Assembly: GCA_947459655.1 (NCBI GenBank)
Contig: CANHEE010000013.1
Coordinates: 1-38,812, forward strand
Source: Lewinellaceae bacterium
GTDB taxonomy: Bacteria > Bacteroidota > Bacteroidia > Chitinophagales > Saprospiraceae
Direction of reading: 5' to 3'
DNA length: 38,812 bases
The notes under the pieces: model-generated
Databases searched by the model: none
What the model was told of the DNA's origin: nothing
The model's input: only the letters and a program-made list of their open reading frames with translations
Made by a program: the position numbers and the translations under genes
In this document: positions 191-37,610 of the stretch, in pieces
How the letters are laid out: every line of letters begins with the position of its first letter
Numbering within the stretch: position 1 is the first letter of the stretch

Positions 191-372
191 GTTGTCTTGA
201 ATTTCTGTTCTCCGTTATCAAAATTTTTTAACATCGAAAAGGCGATAGTGGAAATATTCCTATATGATAATCATCAATCTGCCTTCTGATGAGCATCATC
301 CCGACAAAAACAGGATTGATTCATTTTTGCGGGAATAACTACCAATCCGTAGTTATTCATCAATATTTAGGA

Positions 373-1713
373 ATGGAAATATCGTTTCACGGCGCGGCGC
401 GGACAGTCACGGGAAGTAAATTTCTTCTGACCTTGGACAGCGGCAGGAATGTGCTTCTTGATTGTGGCATGTTTCAGGGGCGCCGAAAGGTTGCTGGGGC
501 GCTGAATGCACATTTTGGATTTGAACCGGCGGGGATTGACTATGTCATCTTGACTCATGCACATATTGATCACTCAGGTCTTTTACCGAAACTTGTTAAA
601 GAGGGTTTTAAGGGTAAAATTTACTGTACACGTGCTACTGCCGATGTGGCAACGCTGCTGTTGTACGATTGCGCGCATATTCAGGAATACGATATTCTTT
701 TTCAGCACAAGAGGCGTCACAAAAAGGACAAACAAAAATTACCTCAGCCCCTTTATAGAAGGCAAGATGTGGATGAAACCGTAGCACTATTTGAAATGGT
801 TGACTACGATTTTCCTTTGAAAATTGATGAAGAAATAACGCTAACATTCAGGGATGCTGGCCACATTCTCGGATCGGCAACTGTATTTCTAGATGTGAGA
901 GATCATAAACTGACCACAAAATTACTCTACACGGGCGATCTGGGTCGCTACCACAACAGCATACTGAATTCACCCAAACCTGTACCCCAACCTGAGATAG
1001 TGATATGCGAAAGCACTTACGGCAATAGTCTGCATGACAGTACTGATTCCGCGATGTCGCAGCTGAAGAATATCGTTTTGGAGACCTGTGTAGAAAAAGG
1101 TGGAAAGCTGGTAATTCCTGCATTCAGCGTTGGTCGCTGCCAAGAGGTATTGTACGCCTTGAATAATCTGTTCAACAACAATGAAATACCTCTCATTCCA
1201 GTGTATGTGGACAGTCCGCTATCCACTGAGGCGACAAAAGTAATTAGGTCCCATCCCGAATGCTTCAATCAGAACGTTCAGGAGTTGATGGTGGAGGACA
1301 GCGATCCTTTTACTTTTCGTGGATTAAAATTTATAGCCAGTGTTGAGCAAAGCAAAGCGCTAAACGACAATGATGAACCTTGCATCATTATATCAGCATC
1401 AGGTATGGCTGATGCTGGCAGAGTCAGGCATCATATTGCCAACACAATTGGAAATAGCAGGAATACAGTACTGATTATCGGTTACTGCGAGGCTTCAACA
1501 TTGGGCGGCATACTGATGAGCGGGGTAGAGGAGGTGAAAATCTTCGGAAAAATAAGGAAAGTAAGGGCGAACGTGACCATCCTGCACTCTTTTAGTGCAC
1601 ATGCCGACTATGAGGAAATCTGCCGGTTTCTTTCCCCAATTGATCCTGCTTTGGGGAAATCTGCCGGTTTCTTTCCCCAATTGATCCTGCTTTGGTCACA
1701 CATTTTTTCATAG
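373..1713 (+). CDS. MBL-fold beta-CASP ribonuclease-like protein, C-terminus frameshifted
   Basis: This is a metallo-beta-lactamase fold protein of the beta-CASP/RMMBL group, whose members cleave RNA in the cytoplasm. I chose the ATG at 373 because the product then begins MEISFHGAARTVTGS, the usual start of the family; an in-frame ATG at 289 adds 28 unconserved residues. Zinc ligands are visible in THAHIDHSG (residues 61-69), GHILGSA (163-169) and YTGDLGR (186-192). The beta-CASP part carries CESTYG (motif A) and SFSAHADY (motif B, near residue 410). After residue 427 the frame runs through the second copy of a perfect 41-bp tandem duplication (1614-1695) and ends on an unrelated tail at 1713. 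The normal C-terminus, with the HGE of motif C, continues in another frame to 1817. Without the extra copy the protein would be 467 residues, a usual family length. The gene is therefore probably inactive or altered, unless the duplication is an assembly artefact. Confidence 0.85.
   Translation: MEISFHGAARTVTGSKFLLTLDSGRNVLLDCGMFQGRRKVAGALNAHFGFEPAGIDYVILTHAHIDHSGLLPKLVKEGFKGKIYCTRATADVATLLLYDCAHIQEYDILFQHKRRHKKDKQKLPQPLYRRQDVDETVALFEMVDYDFPLKIDEEITLTFRDAGHILGSATVFLDVRDHKLTTKLLYTGDLGRYHNSILNSPKPVPQPEIVICESTYGNSLHDSTDSAMSQLKNIVLETCVEKGGKLVIPAFSVGRCQEVLYALNNLFNNNEIPLIPVYVDSPLSTEATKVIRSHPECFNQNVQELMVEDSDPFTFRGLKFIASVEQSKALNDNDEPCIIISASGMADAGRVRHHIANTIGNSRNTVLIIGYCEASTLGGILMSGVEEVKIFGKIRKVRANVTILHSFSAHADYEEICRFLSPIDPALGKSAGFFPQLILLWSHIFS
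1614..1695. repeat. perfect 41-bp tandem duplication (two copies)
   Basis: Bases 1614-1654 are repeated exactly at 1655-1695, with no mismatch and no extra homology at the borders. The unit length leaves a remainder of two when divided by three, so the second copy shifts the frame of the beta-CASP gene. Deleting one copy restores an open frame through to the TAG at 1815-1817. Confidence 0.97.
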
Positions 1714-24262: not shown

Positions 24263-27200
24263 TTAATGAAGTACGATAACTTTCTGTGTGATGGTCGAAT
24301 GTAATCCTGTGAGACTGATAAAATAAGCGCCTGAAGGTATGCCCTCTAGTGAAATTCCGGCGTTCGTCACCGCCCTGGAAAATTCTCTTTGCAAAATCAC
24401 TTTTCCGTGTTTGTCGGTAAGCATGATTTTTTCAAGTCCGGGGTGACTAATGTTCAGCGTTTCAGATGCAGGATTAGGGAACACTGCTACATCCTCGGTA
24501 GCCAAATTTTGTTTTTCGGAACCGATAAATGACAACGCAACTGATTTTTCAGAAACTCCATCGGTAATCAGGCTGACGAAATCATCTGTATTCAAACGGA
24601 TACTTTCCCGCAGTGAATTCAGACTTTTCAATGCTTGAAAACGAAGCGTAACAAGTGGCTCAAGATGATTAACGGGTTGTATATCAGCATTAATCCAGGC
24701 CATTTTTAGTCCATTATGATCAAACTTGCAGTCGGTTAAAGCATTGAAATCCTTTAGGTTACTGTTCACTTCAAGAAGACGAATGTCGGCAGCATTGAAT
24801 TTCAGTCCTGCCTGTATGGCGGCAAGATTCAAACTTTCAGAAGTTGTAAGTGCCACTTCAAAAACTTCATTTTTTTCCACGGAGTGGTCTTTTAAGTCGA
24901 GGGTAAACACTTCGGGTGATCTTCCTCCGGAGACATTTGCCGAAAGGTTAATGTCTCCTGTTTTAATGGCAATAAAGTTCATGCTATCCTGATTGTTGAG
25001 CACATAATTGTTGCTAAGTGAATCGGGAAAACCTGGAACCTGATTTTGCGTCATGCCCGGAAAAACATAATTTGACGGTATAAAGCGCCATACGGGTGCA
25101 TTTCTGAATGTAGGCTGGTAGCTAAGAATGACCCTCTTAATTTCGGAAACATCAAGTGCAGTAAGTGTTCCACTGCGGTTCACATCGGCAGCAATCTTTT
25201 TATAGACTGAGTTCAATGACTGATAACCCAATATATGTCTCTGCAGTAATAATGCATCAACAGCAGTGAGGCCTGCGCGAACATTATCAGTTTTGGAAGC
25301 TCTGATAACCGCTCTGGAGCCTGTGGACAACGTAAAACTATACATTCCGTCCTTAAGTGTTATAGATGAGTCAGCACGGGTGCCACTGAGCATTACCCTG
25401 GTATCACGTATAGCTGCCCCGTCTTCTCTTTTGATTGTTCCCCTGAAGGTAGTAGTTACATTTCCATTGTTTATGCCCACTGAGCCGTTGATGAGGTTCA
25501 TTGGAATGTTTGTCAAACCCGAAGGCAGCATTTGACTGGCAAGTGGTCCGAAAGGGTTGTTTCCAAAACTGATGACGGAATAATTTCCGGAGGCCGCGTC
25601 AAGTCTGATTTTCAGCATAAATAGAGCTGTTCCGTTTGGCAAACTCACACCGCCACTTTCCCTGAAAAATTTACTGAATTGAATTCCGGTGGCGCTAACT
25701 GTGTAAGCAGCTGAATCACTCATGTTGATAGCAAAATTATCCGCACCTATGATTGTTCCTACAGCATTGTTTTCAAGACTCAGGGAAAACCTGATTTCCT
25801 TAATTTTGTTGAAGTTCTGTACTCGGACGGGAACAGAGACCACTGAACCTGATGTGGAGATGATGTTTCCAATAGTGATTGTTAGTTTCGGTCCTTCGCT
25901 GAGACTTGCAGATTTGGTTGCAGTACATCTGCTGACATTGTCAGTAACCGTTACGGTATAGGTTCCTGCTCCGATGTTTTGCAGTACAGCAGTATTGCCG
26001 CCGGTATTCCATGAATAGGAAAAACTTCCCGTTCCACCACTGACTCTCACTTCAACACGGCCATCGGTTGCACCCCAGTAAGATTCATCTGTGGTAACCA
26101 TTGTCGTGCTGAGGGAAAGATTGCTAAAGGAATTGACTACAGTCACATTGCTTGAGCATATACTTTCATTTCCTGCTGCATCCTTTACAGAAAGCTGAAT
26201 TCTGTTCAAACCGATGTGAGTGCAATTGAACCTTTCTCTGCCAGCAGTAAAACTGAGTTCCTGAGTCGTGCTGCAGTTGTCAAAACTGCCATTGTCCAGC
26301 AATACGGAAGGAACATATGCATTTCCGGTATTGTCCAGTGCAATGGTAATATCAGGACGGCAAACTGCAGTTGGGCTGGATTGGTCTGCCACGGTTACAG
26401 TAAAACTGCATGACGACGAATTTCCGTAGATGTCAGTTGCCGTGTAGTTTACAGTGGACAGTCCCAACCGGAAGCTTCTTGACGCAATGGATCCTGTTCC
26501 ACCTGAAATATTTGTGCTGCCGATTGCTGTGTAAGTCAGATCAACGCCACCACAATTGTCTTTTATCAAAGGTACGGCTGCCGAGATTAATGCAGAGCAA
26601 CTTGCATTGGCCGCTATATTGATGTTCTCCGGACAGCTGATCGAAGGCTTTAGGTCGTCTTTTACAAATAACTCAAAACTGCATTCTGCAGTATTGGAAG
26701 CATTGTCTGTTACGGTGTATTTGACAATATTACTGCCAAAATTCAATTGCTCATTACTGAACAGGCCATTGCCATCTTTCGTTGTTGCTCCGCTAATTTG
26801 GTAGGAGATGCTGCCGCTGCAATTATCGGAGAAAATCACCTGTGTACTTGAAACAACTGCATAGCAAGTGGTGTCAAGGCTGTTTACAGTTGTATTCTGC
26901 GGACAGGAAATGACCGGCTTAATATTGTCTGAAACCTTTATTTCGAAGGTGCAACTGGCCTTGTTTCCTGAAAAGTCAGTAATTGTGTAGGTAATCTGGT
27001 TACTTCCTGTTTTCAATAGGCTGCCATTAATGGAGCCGGTTCCCGAAGTGGTGGTCGAACCTGTAGTTCTGAAACTTAGCTTCAAATCTGAATTTTGGTC
27101 ACAGAGGTCAGAAAAAACAGGATTGGGGATATTCGCTGCCAGTACTTCGCAGGAATTGAATGGTGTATTCAGAACTGCGTCTGCAGGACAAGTGATTGTT

Positions 27201-29308
27201 GGGTTGCTTTTTTCGAAAACTGTTAAAAAGAATGTACATGAGTCCTGATTTTGAGCAGCATCCTGCACGTAGCAATCTATTCGTGTGATACCTGAGTTAA
27301 AATCTACGAGGTCGAGAGAGCTTGTTGTGGCAGACAGACTTGTCGCACCTGAAATTTTGTATGAGAAGATAAGGTTTCGTGAATCACAATTGTCTGTGGC
27401 AGTTGCCTGCAGACCGCTTACTCTGCTTTTACATCCATCGTTTATCGTTACAGTAAGGTCTTTTACACATGAAATAGCAGGCCGCTGAGAATCTGCAACA
27501 GTTACATTAAATCCCGCAGTTGAAGGGTTTCCTGATTCATCTATTGCAGTGTATTGTACGTAGGTCGTTCCCGTATTGAAAGTGAATCCATTCACGCCAG
27601 TCATGGGAGAGACAATGGAGTCATTGATTACAGTTGCACCGGAGAGACTCGCTTTAAGAATCATCTTGTTTCTTGCTGTGCAATTGTCACTTAGGGAGTC
27701 GGGAGCAAGTCCGGTAGCTATAGTAGCTGAGCACAAGCCAATTTGTGCGTCAACTGAAAGGTCAGTCGGACATTTGATGGTTGGACTTGCCACTGTTCCC
27801 TCGCGCACAAAAACATTGAAAGAGCACTGGGTACTATTGTTTTGTTGGTCTTTTACCTTGTAGGTTACTTTTGTCCAGCCTGCATTAAATGACTGACCAG
27901 AAGGTATCGTCCCGGTGCCGCTTGCATCCAGCGCACCGCTGCACTCATAATCAAGTGCGAGTAAGTTTTGCGGAGTGCAGTTGTCAGAGAAAATAGGTGC
28001 ATTCAGTTGCAGAACCTTCGAGCAGGTTCCTGCATTGGCAATGGTATTGATGTTGTCGTTATTGCAATTGATTTTAGGGGCCGTATTGTCCAAAATATTG
28101 ATTTGTTGTACGCAGGTATTGCTGTTAGCGGCGGCATCACTGACAGTGAAAGCCAGGAAAGAAACGCCATAGTTGAACCTTTGACGCTCGATGTTTCGCA
28201 AAGCAGTTGCCGATGTCTGCGTAGCTCCGCTCAACTGGTAGGTAATGCCAAGGTTAATTTGCCCGCAATTGTCAGTGCTGAAAGGTGTTACCGCTGAAAC
28301 AGGAACATAGTTAAATGCCGAATCCGCGAGTGCGTTTATCGTAACGTTGGTCGGACATAAAACCTGTGGTTTATCTATATCTTTAACATCTACGACGAAG
28401 CTACAAAAAGAATTTTCGTTTCCGCTGATGTCTCTCGCTGTGTAACGCACCAGCGTTTGGCCAACATTAAAAACAGCATTGTTTGCAGAGCCGTTACCAC
28501 TTGAATTTGTGGCGCCGGAAAGAGTGTACTCAACAGTCATCTGAGTAGGAGAGGTGCAGTTATCACCGTAAATAGGGCTTAAACCAGCAGGAATCTGAAG
28601 CTGACATGCATTTGATGGCGCACTATGGGTCGAGCCCGATGGGCAACTCAACAATATTGGAGCGACATTATCTTTTACATCTATAATGGTGGAGCAGGTT
28701 CTACTGTTTCCGGATGCATCTGTCGCCAGGTAGTTAATGGTGGTCTTTCCAGTATTCAATATGGTACCTGCAAGTGTTCCACTGCCATTTCCGGTAGTTG
28801 CACCAACGAGTGACCAGCTAACGGCAGAACTACTACAATTGTCAACCGCAACCGCAGTAAGTGCATCGTTTAGGGTAAAGCTGCATGCATTGCCAATGGC
28901 TACATAGTTCTGGTTGGCAGGGCAAGTCAGCACGGGTGCAGTTGTATCCAGAATTCTCAAGGTAAATTTCAATGGAGAAACCATTGGAGTGGCAGGATTG
29001 CCATCATCAGCGCTCACAAAAACTTCAATGTCCGGACCAATTGCAGTGGAATTGAAAGTTGGCAGTCCCGCAAATGGAATTGTCATACTCGCATCTCGGA
29101 AATAGGTAAGCGTACAACTGCCATTGACGTTCATATATGTTGTGGCGTCAAAAGACACAAGACAGTTGCCCCCTAAAATGAGATTGATGGTGCCCTGGGT
29201 CGGATTTTTAAAACTTATCGGACATTGGGCTTCAGAGGTAGACATGAAAAGTGTTAAACCAATAAAGAGGGAAAGCAGAATTTGGGATGATCTTAGTTTT
29301 GGTTGCAT
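24263..29308 (-). CDS. giant secreted HYR-repeat protein with cohesin- and dockerin-like domains and T9SS signal
   Basis: A 1681-residue exported protein. A signal peptide (about 1-27, ending MSTSEAQC) is followed by ten HYR-like (hyalin/Ig-fold) repeats of 80-95 residues from about residue 115 to 1010. Each has a pattern like CP-N, a central DNC, SGAT, F-N-G-V-YT, D-GN and CSF-V-V-D. A SprB-type repeat follows (GATDGRVEVRVSGGTGSFSY, about 1030-1085). Then come a cohesin-like segment (VSVPVRVQNFNKIKEIRFSL), a carboxypeptidase-regulatory-like part, a dockerin-like pair (VDALLLQRHILG and DVNRSGTLTALDVSEIKRVI), a second cohesin-like segment (FEVALTTSESLNLAAIQAGL), and a type IX secretion C-terminal domain (VFPNPASETLNISHPG to the end). 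It is probably a cell-surface adhesin or scaffold. No catalytic domain is seen. Its ligand is unknown. Confidence 0.93.
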   Translation of the reverse strand: MQPKLRSSQILLSLFIGLTLFMSTSEAQCPISFKNPTQGTINLILGGNCLVSFDATTYMNVNGSCTLTYFRDASMTIPFAGLPTFNSTAIGPDIEVFVSADDGNPATPMVSPLKFTLRILDTTAPVLTCPANQNYVAIGNACSFTLNDALTAVAVDNCSSSAVSWSLVGATTGNGSGTLAGTILNTGKTTINYLATDASGNSRTCSTIIDVKDNVAPILLSCPSGSTHSAPSNACQLQIPAGLSPIYGDNCTSPTQMTVEYTLSGATNSSGNGSANNAVFNVGQTLVRYTARDISGNENSFCSFVVDVKDIDKPQVLCPTNVTINALADSAFNYVPVSAVTPFSTDNCGQINLGITYQLSGATQTSATALRNIERQRFNYGVSFLAFTVSDAAANSNTCVQQINILDNTAPKINCNNDNINTIANAGTCSKVLQLNAPIFSDNCTPQNLLALDYECSGALDASGTGTIPSGQSFNAGWTKVTYKVKDQQNNSTQCSFNVFVREGTVASPTIKCPTDLSVDAQIGLCSATIATGLAPDSLSDNCTARNKMILKASLSGATVINDSIVSPMTGVNGFTFNTGTTYVQYTAIDESGNPSTAGFNVTVADSQRPAISCVKDLTVTINDGCKSRVSGLQATATDNCDSRNLIFSYKISGATSLSATTSSLDLVDFNSGITRIDCYVQDAAQNQDSCTFFLTVFEKSNPTITCPADAVLNTPFNSCEVLAANIPNPVFSDLCDQNSDLKLSFRTTGSTTTSGTGSINGSLLKTGSNQITYTITDFSGNKASCTFEIKVSDNIKPVISCPQNTTVNSLDTTCYAVVSSTQVIFSDNCSGSISYQISGATTKDGNGLFSNEQLNFGSNIVKYTVTDNASNTAECSFELFVKDDLKPSISCPENINIAANASCSALISAAVPLIKDNCGGVDLTYTAIGSTNISGGTGSIASRSFRLGLSTVNYTATDIYGNSSSCSFTVTVADQSSPTAVCRPDITIALDNTGNAYVPSVLLDNGSFDNCSTTQELSFTAGRERFNCTHIGLNRIQLSVKDAAGNESICSSNVTVVNSFSNLSLSTTMVTTDESYWGATDGRVEVRVSGGTGSFSYSWNTGGNTAVLQNIGAGTYTVTVTDNVSRCTATKSASLSEGPKLTITIGNIISTSGSVVSVPVRVQNFNKIKEIRFSLSLENNAVGTIIGADNFAINMSDSAAYTVSATGIQFSKFFRESGGVSLPNGTALFMLKIRLDAASGNYSVISFGNNPFGPLASQMLPSGLTNIPMNLINGSVGINNGNVTTTFRGTIKREDGAAIRDTRVMLSGTRADSSITLKDGMYSFTLSTGSRAVIRASKTDNVRAGLTAVDALLLQRHILGYQSLNSVYKKIAADVNRSGTLTALDVSEIKRVILSYQPTFRNAPVWRFIPSNYVFPGMTQNQVPGFPDSLSNNYVLNNQDSMNFIAIKTGDINLSANVSGGRSPEVFTLDLKDHSVEKNEVFEVALTTSESLNLAAIQAGLKFNAADIRLLEVNSNLKDFNALTDCKFDHNGLKMAWINADIQPVNHLEPLVTLRFQALKSLNSLRESIRLNTDDFVSLITDGVSEKSVALSFIGSEKQNLATEDVAVFPNPASETLNISHPGLEKIMLTDKHGKVILQREFSRAVTNAGISLEGIPSGAYFISLTGLHSTITQKVIVLH

Positions 29309-36459: not shown

Positions 36460-36723
36460 TTACTGTATAGTAGGAGCTACGTTTATCGAAGTATTTTTTG
36501 GAGTAGGGGCTTCAAATCTGGGTTGTCTGTTGACTTCTTTCTGGAATTCCTTGTAGGAACCTGCACCATTATAGGTGAATACAATATACAGGGCAACCAT
36601 ACAGCCAAGAACGATAGAAGACAGGAAAATCCTTTCTCTGGTTTTTCTTCTCTCTTCAAGCTTTCTTTCTGCAATGTGCTTTTCAAGCTCTTCCGTGTTG
36701 ATTGAGTATTGGTGCATCATCAT
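36460..36723 (-). CDS. small membrane protein, unknown function
   Basis: An 87-residue protein with three consecutive start ATGs (36723, 36720, 36717). The N-terminal 30 residues form a charged, probably helical or coiled segment (TEELEKHIAERKLEERRKTRER). One membrane helix follows (IFLSSIVLGCMVALYIVFTY, about 32-51), then a proline- and asparagine-rich tail (RQPRFEAPTPKNTS). The long charged segment on the N-terminal side suggests a cytoplasmic N-terminus. It follows the preceding gene by 14 bases and is likely the last gene of the operon. I recognise no family. Confidence 0.65.
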   Translation of the reverse strand: MMMHQYSINTEELEKHIAERKLEERRKTRERIFLSSIVLGCMVALYIVFTYNGAGSYKEFQKEVNRQPRFEAPTPKNTSINVAPTIQ

Positions 36724-36737
36724 TATAGTGTAAGTTT

Positions 36738-37595
36738 TTAGTGGTTCCGGAATTGTTTTTTAAATTCGTTTGTCAGATTTTCACCAAATATTTCCTGAAA
36801 AATTTCGGTCATTTTTGTTTCCATTGCTTGTTTATCGCTTTCGGAAGTATTAATATTGATAAGTTTTACATCTATTTCTCTTTTCAGTGGTAATCTCCAT
36901 TGCACTCCAACGATAAAACTATCTTTATCAAAACCGTCGAAAGAAAATTTAAGCCTGTAGATTATACGCCAGAGTTCCAGCATAAGTTCCAAATCCAAGG
37001 CACTAATATCTTTTAACCTGAATTTCTTGTGCAGTCCAGTTCTTTTTACATAGGTTTCCAGCAGTTCGCCTTCGAAAAAAGGTCTGTAAAAATACAACTC
37101 ACCTGATGCGGTTTGACGGATACTACTGCAATCCTTGTAATAGGATTTTTCCCGGTCATGTAGCTTTTCAAATAGTCTGACAATTGTTTTCGGAACATTG
37201 TTTTTCAAAACCCTGAAAACAAGTTTCTTCTTTTCACCTTGCAATCTTCCTCTGAAACTGATGAATTCCCTATCAGGGATTTTTTCTTCAAAGACTGCAA
37301 ATTCAGCTATTTTAGGCAGCAAATTTCGATCCAAATCCTTCAAATCGGAATCAAATATCGGCCTCTCCGCATCTTTTTTTTCCGCGGGTTCGTGTTTAAA
37401 CGGCTTTTCTGTTTCCGGGGTTACATCTTTTTCATATTTTTTTTCATATTTTTTTTCTGAACCGGAATAAAATTCCGAATTGATGCCTCCCGAAGACAGC
37501 GGTCTGCTGAGTTGTTCAACGTCGTTTTTGATGAGAGGCTCCTGAGGGATATCATTGTCGGTTCGAATTACAACATCGCCGATTTCACTCAACAT
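36738..37595 (-). CDS. unknown protein with faint kinase-like region; probable C-terminal half of a split gene
   Basis: From the ATG at 37595 the product has 285 residues (a GTG at 37607 would add four). The first 100 residues are charged and low in complexity (KKYEKKYEKD, KHEPAEKKD). The rest is compact. Its order of elements faintly recalls a protein kinase: LVFRVLKNN, a helix (IVRLFEKLHDREKSYY), a hinge-like FYRPFFEGELLETYVKR, then ELMLELWRIIYRLKFSF, DGFDKDSFIV and DVKLININ, which could sit where the catalytic and DFG loops lie. The catalytic H-R-D, DFG and P-loop residues are absent, so any kinase relation would be a pseudokinase and is my inference. The gene overlaps the upstream ORF through a 19-bp tandem duplication. 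Removing one copy fuses the two into one frame. Confidence 0.7.
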   Translation of the reverse strand: MLSEIGDVVIRTDNDIPQEPLIKNDVEQLSRPLSSGGINSEFYSGSEKKYEKKYEKDVTPETEKPFKHEPAEKKDAERPIFDSDLKDLDRNLLPKIAEFAVFEEKIPDREFISFRGRLQGEKKKLVFRVLKNNVPKTIVRLFEKLHDREKSYYKDCSSIRQTASGELYFYRPFFEGELLETYVKRTGLHKKFRLKDISALDLELMLELWRIIYRLKFSFDGFDKDSFIVGVQWRLPLKREIDVKLININTSESDKQAMETKMTEIFQEIFGENLTNEFKKQFRNH

Positions 37596-37610
37596 CGCCG
37601 ATTTCACTCA
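37571..37610. repeat. perfect 19-bp tandem duplication at the junction of two ORFs
   Basis: The unit (CAACATCGCCGATTTCACT on the plus strand) occurs at 37571-37589 and 37590-37608, and two further bases match (37609-37610). Nineteen is not a multiple of three. On the minus strand both copies encode SEIGDV, once at the end of the upstream ORF and once at the start of the downstream ORF, in different frames. Deleting one copy gives a single continuous 644-codon frame. Confidence 0.97.

Follow-up and report, generated by a model that had tools for sequence, protein, structure and literature searches.

Close to one end of the contig analysed here, two overlapping open reading frames on the minus strand meet at a short, exact tandem repeat. 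Do they represent two genes, or a single gene that the repeat has interrupted, and in the latter case, is the gene broken in the organism or only in its assembled sequence? The window, that is, the whole stretch of DNA under analysis, is the complete contig C13 (38,812 bases); the genome comprises 2.99 Mb in 175 contigs. The features discussed below are collected in Table 1. On the minus strand at 24263–29308, the window also carries a 1,681-aa ORF that looks secreted, with numerous HYR-like repeats and, at the C-terminus, an apparent sorting domain.

Table 1. Features of the window that bear on the interrupted gene. Positions refer to the window; strand is given where it applies.
Feature	Position	Strand	Basis
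Second exact tandem duplication, 41 bp	1614..1695		Repeat scans; exactly 2.00 copies
Gene of an MBL-fold/beta-CASP ribonuclease, cut short by the 41-bp duplication	289..1713	+	Pfam; TTHA0252 similarity
19-bp exact tandem duplication	37571..37610		2.1 copies; TRF and direct-repeat scans
ORF1, N-terminal half, Hsp70/actin-like ATPase-fold domain (predicted), 368 aa	37585..38691	-	Mapping to profile of single-chain relatives; Foldseek
ORF2, linker and C-terminal half, 289 aa counted from GTG	36738..37607	-	Mapping to profile of single-chain relatives
Protein-kinase-like (apparently pseudokinase) domain, ORF2 residues about 93–289	36738..37331	-	AlphaFold2 model; Foldseek
Small gene just downstream, 87-aa protein, one apparent membrane stretch	36460..36723	-	Layout compared by inspection

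The repeat and the two reading frames

The repeat unit, CAACATCGCCGATTTCACT, occurs as an exact head-to-tail pair at 37571–37589 and 37590–37608, and the two copies are 100% identical according to TRF and an independent repeat scan. Two further matching bases beyond the pair extend the identity to 21 bases at an offset of 19 (37571–37610), and the copy is flanked by a 2-bp microhomology (CA). The copies are adjacent, and the unit length is not a multiple of three. The window contains two exact tandem repeats with a unit of at least 13, whereas 60 third-order Markov simulations of it produced none.

ORF1 ends in ...LQKLSEIGDVE*, and its frameshift stop, TGA at 37585–37587, lies inside the repeat. 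ORF2, with the translation VKSAMLSEIGDVVIRTDND, overlaps ORF1 at the repeat. The earlier note on this DNA had regarded the pair as a 644-codon gene broken by a 19-bp tandem duplication, and both the repeat and the overlapping ORFs were recovered, with 367 and 277 codons giving the total of 644. Also borne out was its observation that the peptide SEIGDV is encoded twice, by ORF1 and ORF2 in different frames, as was the presence of two ORF2 start codons within the overlap, GTG at 37605–37607 and ATG at 37593–37595. The coding potential is intact on both sides of the duplication, and the downstream frame is undamaged. When the genome itself was searched with the repeat region for an intact or overlapping second contig, only the window matched.

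A single chain in the relatives

A profile search located the gene in 13 other genomes among 398 of the family. The relatives of the gene in a named collection are Saprospiraceae MAGs, which makes it probable that the present genome belongs to that family; the loci of relatives include L002, L004 and L157–L162. In 11 of these 13 relatives, nearly the whole model lies in one stop-free frame, which in one instance reaches the contig edge. The remaining two are a locus cut by a contig edge and G111, which has the C-terminal part only, as a 203-aa ORF. A class-wide search added three single-chain cases of 635–798 codons from another family, bringing the full-length relatives that carry both halves uninterrupted to 14.

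The two ORFs occupy complementary parts of these chains. On a profile built from single-chain relatives only, ORF1 maps to positions 1–375 and ORF2 to positions 419–660 of 661, and pairwise comparisons agree. ORF1 matches the G033 relative within a 635-codon frame, and ORF2 matches frames in G073 (689 codons), G033 (635 codons) and G010 (546 codons); in G033, the counterparts of ORF1 and ORF2 share one frame. A scan of genome contigs with ORF1 alone as the query returned no relatives. A repeat scan restricted to the 13 family loci, leaving aside the three of the other family, turned up no exact tandem repeat of at least 11 bp.

Because 14 full-length relatives encode both halves as a single chain, comparison at the sequence level supports the interpretation of ORF1 and ORF2 as one gene interrupted by the 19-bp duplication. 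A search for homologous single chains covering both halves had been proposed earlier as a check on this interpretation, and every full-length relative that it found is of this kind.

Predicted domains of the interrupted protein

The gene family is uncharacterised and without a Pfam match, and it has members in the Saprospiraceae and in one or more further families of the class. Sequence searches of Pfam and PDB with both halves and with the relatives gave nothing above the cut-off; ORF1 matched no Pfam family up to E = 1, nor did it match the HSP70 profile. Structures were predicted with AlphaFold2 from shallow alignments. The model of ORF1 is of moderate quality (pLDDT 70), and Foldseek relates it to the ATPase fold of Hsp70/DnaK and MreB (best E 3e-8, DnaK/Hsp70 NBD), with TM-scores below 0.4. 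In the model of ORF2, residues 1–92 are disordered and the folded part begins at residue 93; Foldseek matched it to many protein kinases (best E 1e-5). As the TM-scores are low, the structural matches of ORF1 and ORF2 are only fold-level resemblances. At that level, the gene apparently encodes an Hsp70-like N-terminal domain, a disordered linker and a pseudokinase-like C-terminal domain. The break lies just after the last helix of the N-terminal domain, at the start of the linker, which is variable among the relatives and predicted to be disordered here. An in-frame 12-bp tandem repeat of 2.5 copies (37428–37457) is found in the linker part of ORF2, where it encodes KKYEKKYEK.

In G111, the kinase-like C-terminal domain stands alone (L100:1483-2094). 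Its motifs are better preserved (HNNLNERNILV, KLVDF), it has a weak Kdo-kinase match (E 0.019), and it is followed by a 407-aa membrane/TonB-like ORF.

The small gene just downstream of ORF2 has possible counterparts. By inspection, the next gene downstream in five relatives (G073, G208, G860, G659 and G111) is laid out similarly and encodes a protein with a single apparent membrane stretch; such a membrane-protein partner was not seen in the flanks of G033 and G365.

As a by-product, the analysis thus points to an uncharacterised family in which a pseudokinase-like domain would be combined with an Hsp70-like ATPase domain.

A second duplication on the same contig

The window holds a second exact tandem duplication, near its other end, which the earlier note had overlooked. 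The unit of 41 bp is likewise not divisible by three and is without microhomology at its borders. It shifts the frame about midway through the RMMBL domain and so truncates the gene of an MBL-fold/beta-CASP ribonuclease, the product of which matches Pfam Beta-Casp with E 1.7e-36. The RMMBL match of this product ends at profile position 32 of 63, and its similarity to RNase TTHA0252 ends at residue 391 of the 431 residues of TTHA0252. The missing C-terminus of the nuclease, EICRFLSPIDPALVTHFFIVHGEPIVQDEFRKRLIEKGFNNVIIPELHEHCFI* (...HFFIVHGEP...), can be read in a different frame that is open from the second 41-bp copy onwards. A search of the genome with the 41-bp region for a second contig gave only a weak 69% match elsewhere. 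One contig therefore carries two similarly built lesions that affect unrelated genes, and otherwise undamaged coding sequence adjoins each of them. The 41-bp lesion is 1,613 b and the 19-bp lesion 1,202 b away from opposite contig ends.

The rarity of such lesions was assessed in 1.81 Mb outside the window (C1–C12, C14–C61, C70, C80, C90 and C100, some cut at 20 kb), a sample in which about 30 contigs were covered in full or almost so. Exact tandem duplications that break a frame and have a unit of at least 11 do not occur in this sample. Its only exact repeats of that unit size, with units of 12 and 18, lie at C5:28-190; they were rejected as further cases, their units being multiples of three within a repeat-rich stretch. 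A 40-bp repeat at C42:13673-13775 was rejected as a third case, because its 2.6 copies form a diverged array (93%). By calculation, if two events fell at random over roughly 1.85 Mb, the second would share the 38.8-kb contig of the first about 2% of the time.

Origin of the duplications

Rather than a new kind of gene, the lesion most probably reflects an error of assembly or else an ordinary mutation of recent date. The preferred reading, to which a rough probability of 0.55 is assigned, is that the repeats stem from assembly joins. Adjacent pieces sharing an overlap of 19 (or 41) bases would have been placed end to end and their overlap left unmerged. The 19-bp duplication shifts the frame into a stop within the repeat, and the gene is broken in this sequence; the organism itself probably has an intact gene.

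An assembly join is favoured because the two lesions lie near opposite ends of the contig, each at a distance below 1.7 kb, a placement that was noticed after the fact, and because the 41-bp twin exists and nothing of its kind was found in 1.81 Mb elsewhere. The exact 2.00 copies of the 41-bp unit and its lack of microhomology fit the simple concatenation of an overlap. Other considerations weigh against it. No such fault was seen at the ends of other contigs of the assembly, so that it is not systematic; the overlap lengths differ (19 and 41), so that no single k-mer setting explains both; and the lesions are set back from the very ends of the contig by 1.2–1.6 kb. The earlier note had named an assembly error only as an alternative to a biological break. 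The twin lesion and the absence of its like from the 1.81-Mb sample give that alternative more weight.

A real recent duplication, by slippage or break-repair, has a chance somewhat short of even. It would have inactivated the gene, as the 41-bp duplication would have inactivated the nuclease gene, making both of them young pseudogenes. Exact short tandem duplications belong to an ordinary class of mutation. Slippage could have used the CA microhomology at the 19-bp copy, and the patchy distribution of the gene, in 13 other genomes of 398, implies that its loss would be tolerated. However, two events would have to fall into one 39-kb contig, both near its ends, with none in 1.81 Mb elsewhere. 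Moreover, the 41-bp event would have proceeded without microhomology, and it would cost a widely conserved nuclease its conserved C-terminus.

It is very improbable that the split is functional, with termination and reinitiation at the ATG that precedes the ORF1 stop yielding two subunits from one mRNA. The ORF2 starts do overlap the ORF1 stop at a workable distance, the break falls where a disordered linker between the two domains begins, and the C-terminal domain of G111 is a free-standing 203-aa ORF. Nevertheless, all 14 of the 14 full-length relatives are single-chain, the GTG and ATG starts arise incidentally when the second copy is read in a different frame, and a functional split cannot explain why an unrelated gene of this contig bears a comparable lesion. 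The earlier interpretation was accordingly kept in part. The single gene broken by a duplication stands, on the strength of its single-chain relatives, but translational coupling that keeps both halves in production is not supported, since the starts come with the repeat and no full-length relative is split.

More speculative still, and a long shot, is the idea of genuine duplications, unstable within the population, whose copy number would switch both the Hsp70-like/pseudokinase protein and the beta-CASP nuclease between full-length and truncated forms. Least credible is the production of full-length protein in some cells, either by programmed +1 frameshifting or by phase variation through a reversible switch in repeat copy number: a +1 shift in the overlap would join the frames, and gain or loss of the repeat is conceivable in principle, but the relatives have no repeat there and an uninterrupted frame, only two copies are present instead of an array, and no slippery motif was recognised by inspection.

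The main lesson is one of caution: the split gene and the truncated conserved nuclease should not be taken as biology before a check of the reads.

Comparison with known systems

The N-terminal half of the interrupted protein may be compared with the nucleotide-binding domain of Hsp70/DnaK (ASKHA ATPases), since the predicted fold of ORF1 is like that of the DnaK, BiP and MreB structures. Unlike Hsp70/DnaK, ORF1 has no Pfam HSP70 match, with an identity of about 10%, and its N-terminus is without a phosphate motif of the DLGTTNS type. In addition, a kinase-like domain replaces the substrate-binding domain in the broken gene.

The folded part of ORF2, residues about 93–289, is alike in predicted fold to protein kinases, with TkArkI (7vnx) as the closest match. 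It differs from them in having no Pfam kinase match and in reading FDGFDKDSF and NINTS at the places of the catalytic-loop HRD and DFG. Because these catalytic motifs are absent at the aligned positions, the domain looks like a pseudokinase.

The interruption itself resembles a frameshift pseudogene formed by a short tandem duplication, or an assembly error that mimics one: exact copies, a unit length not divisible by three, and coding sequence on both sides are all found here. What distinguishes the present case from these is solely the second instance at the other end of the contig.
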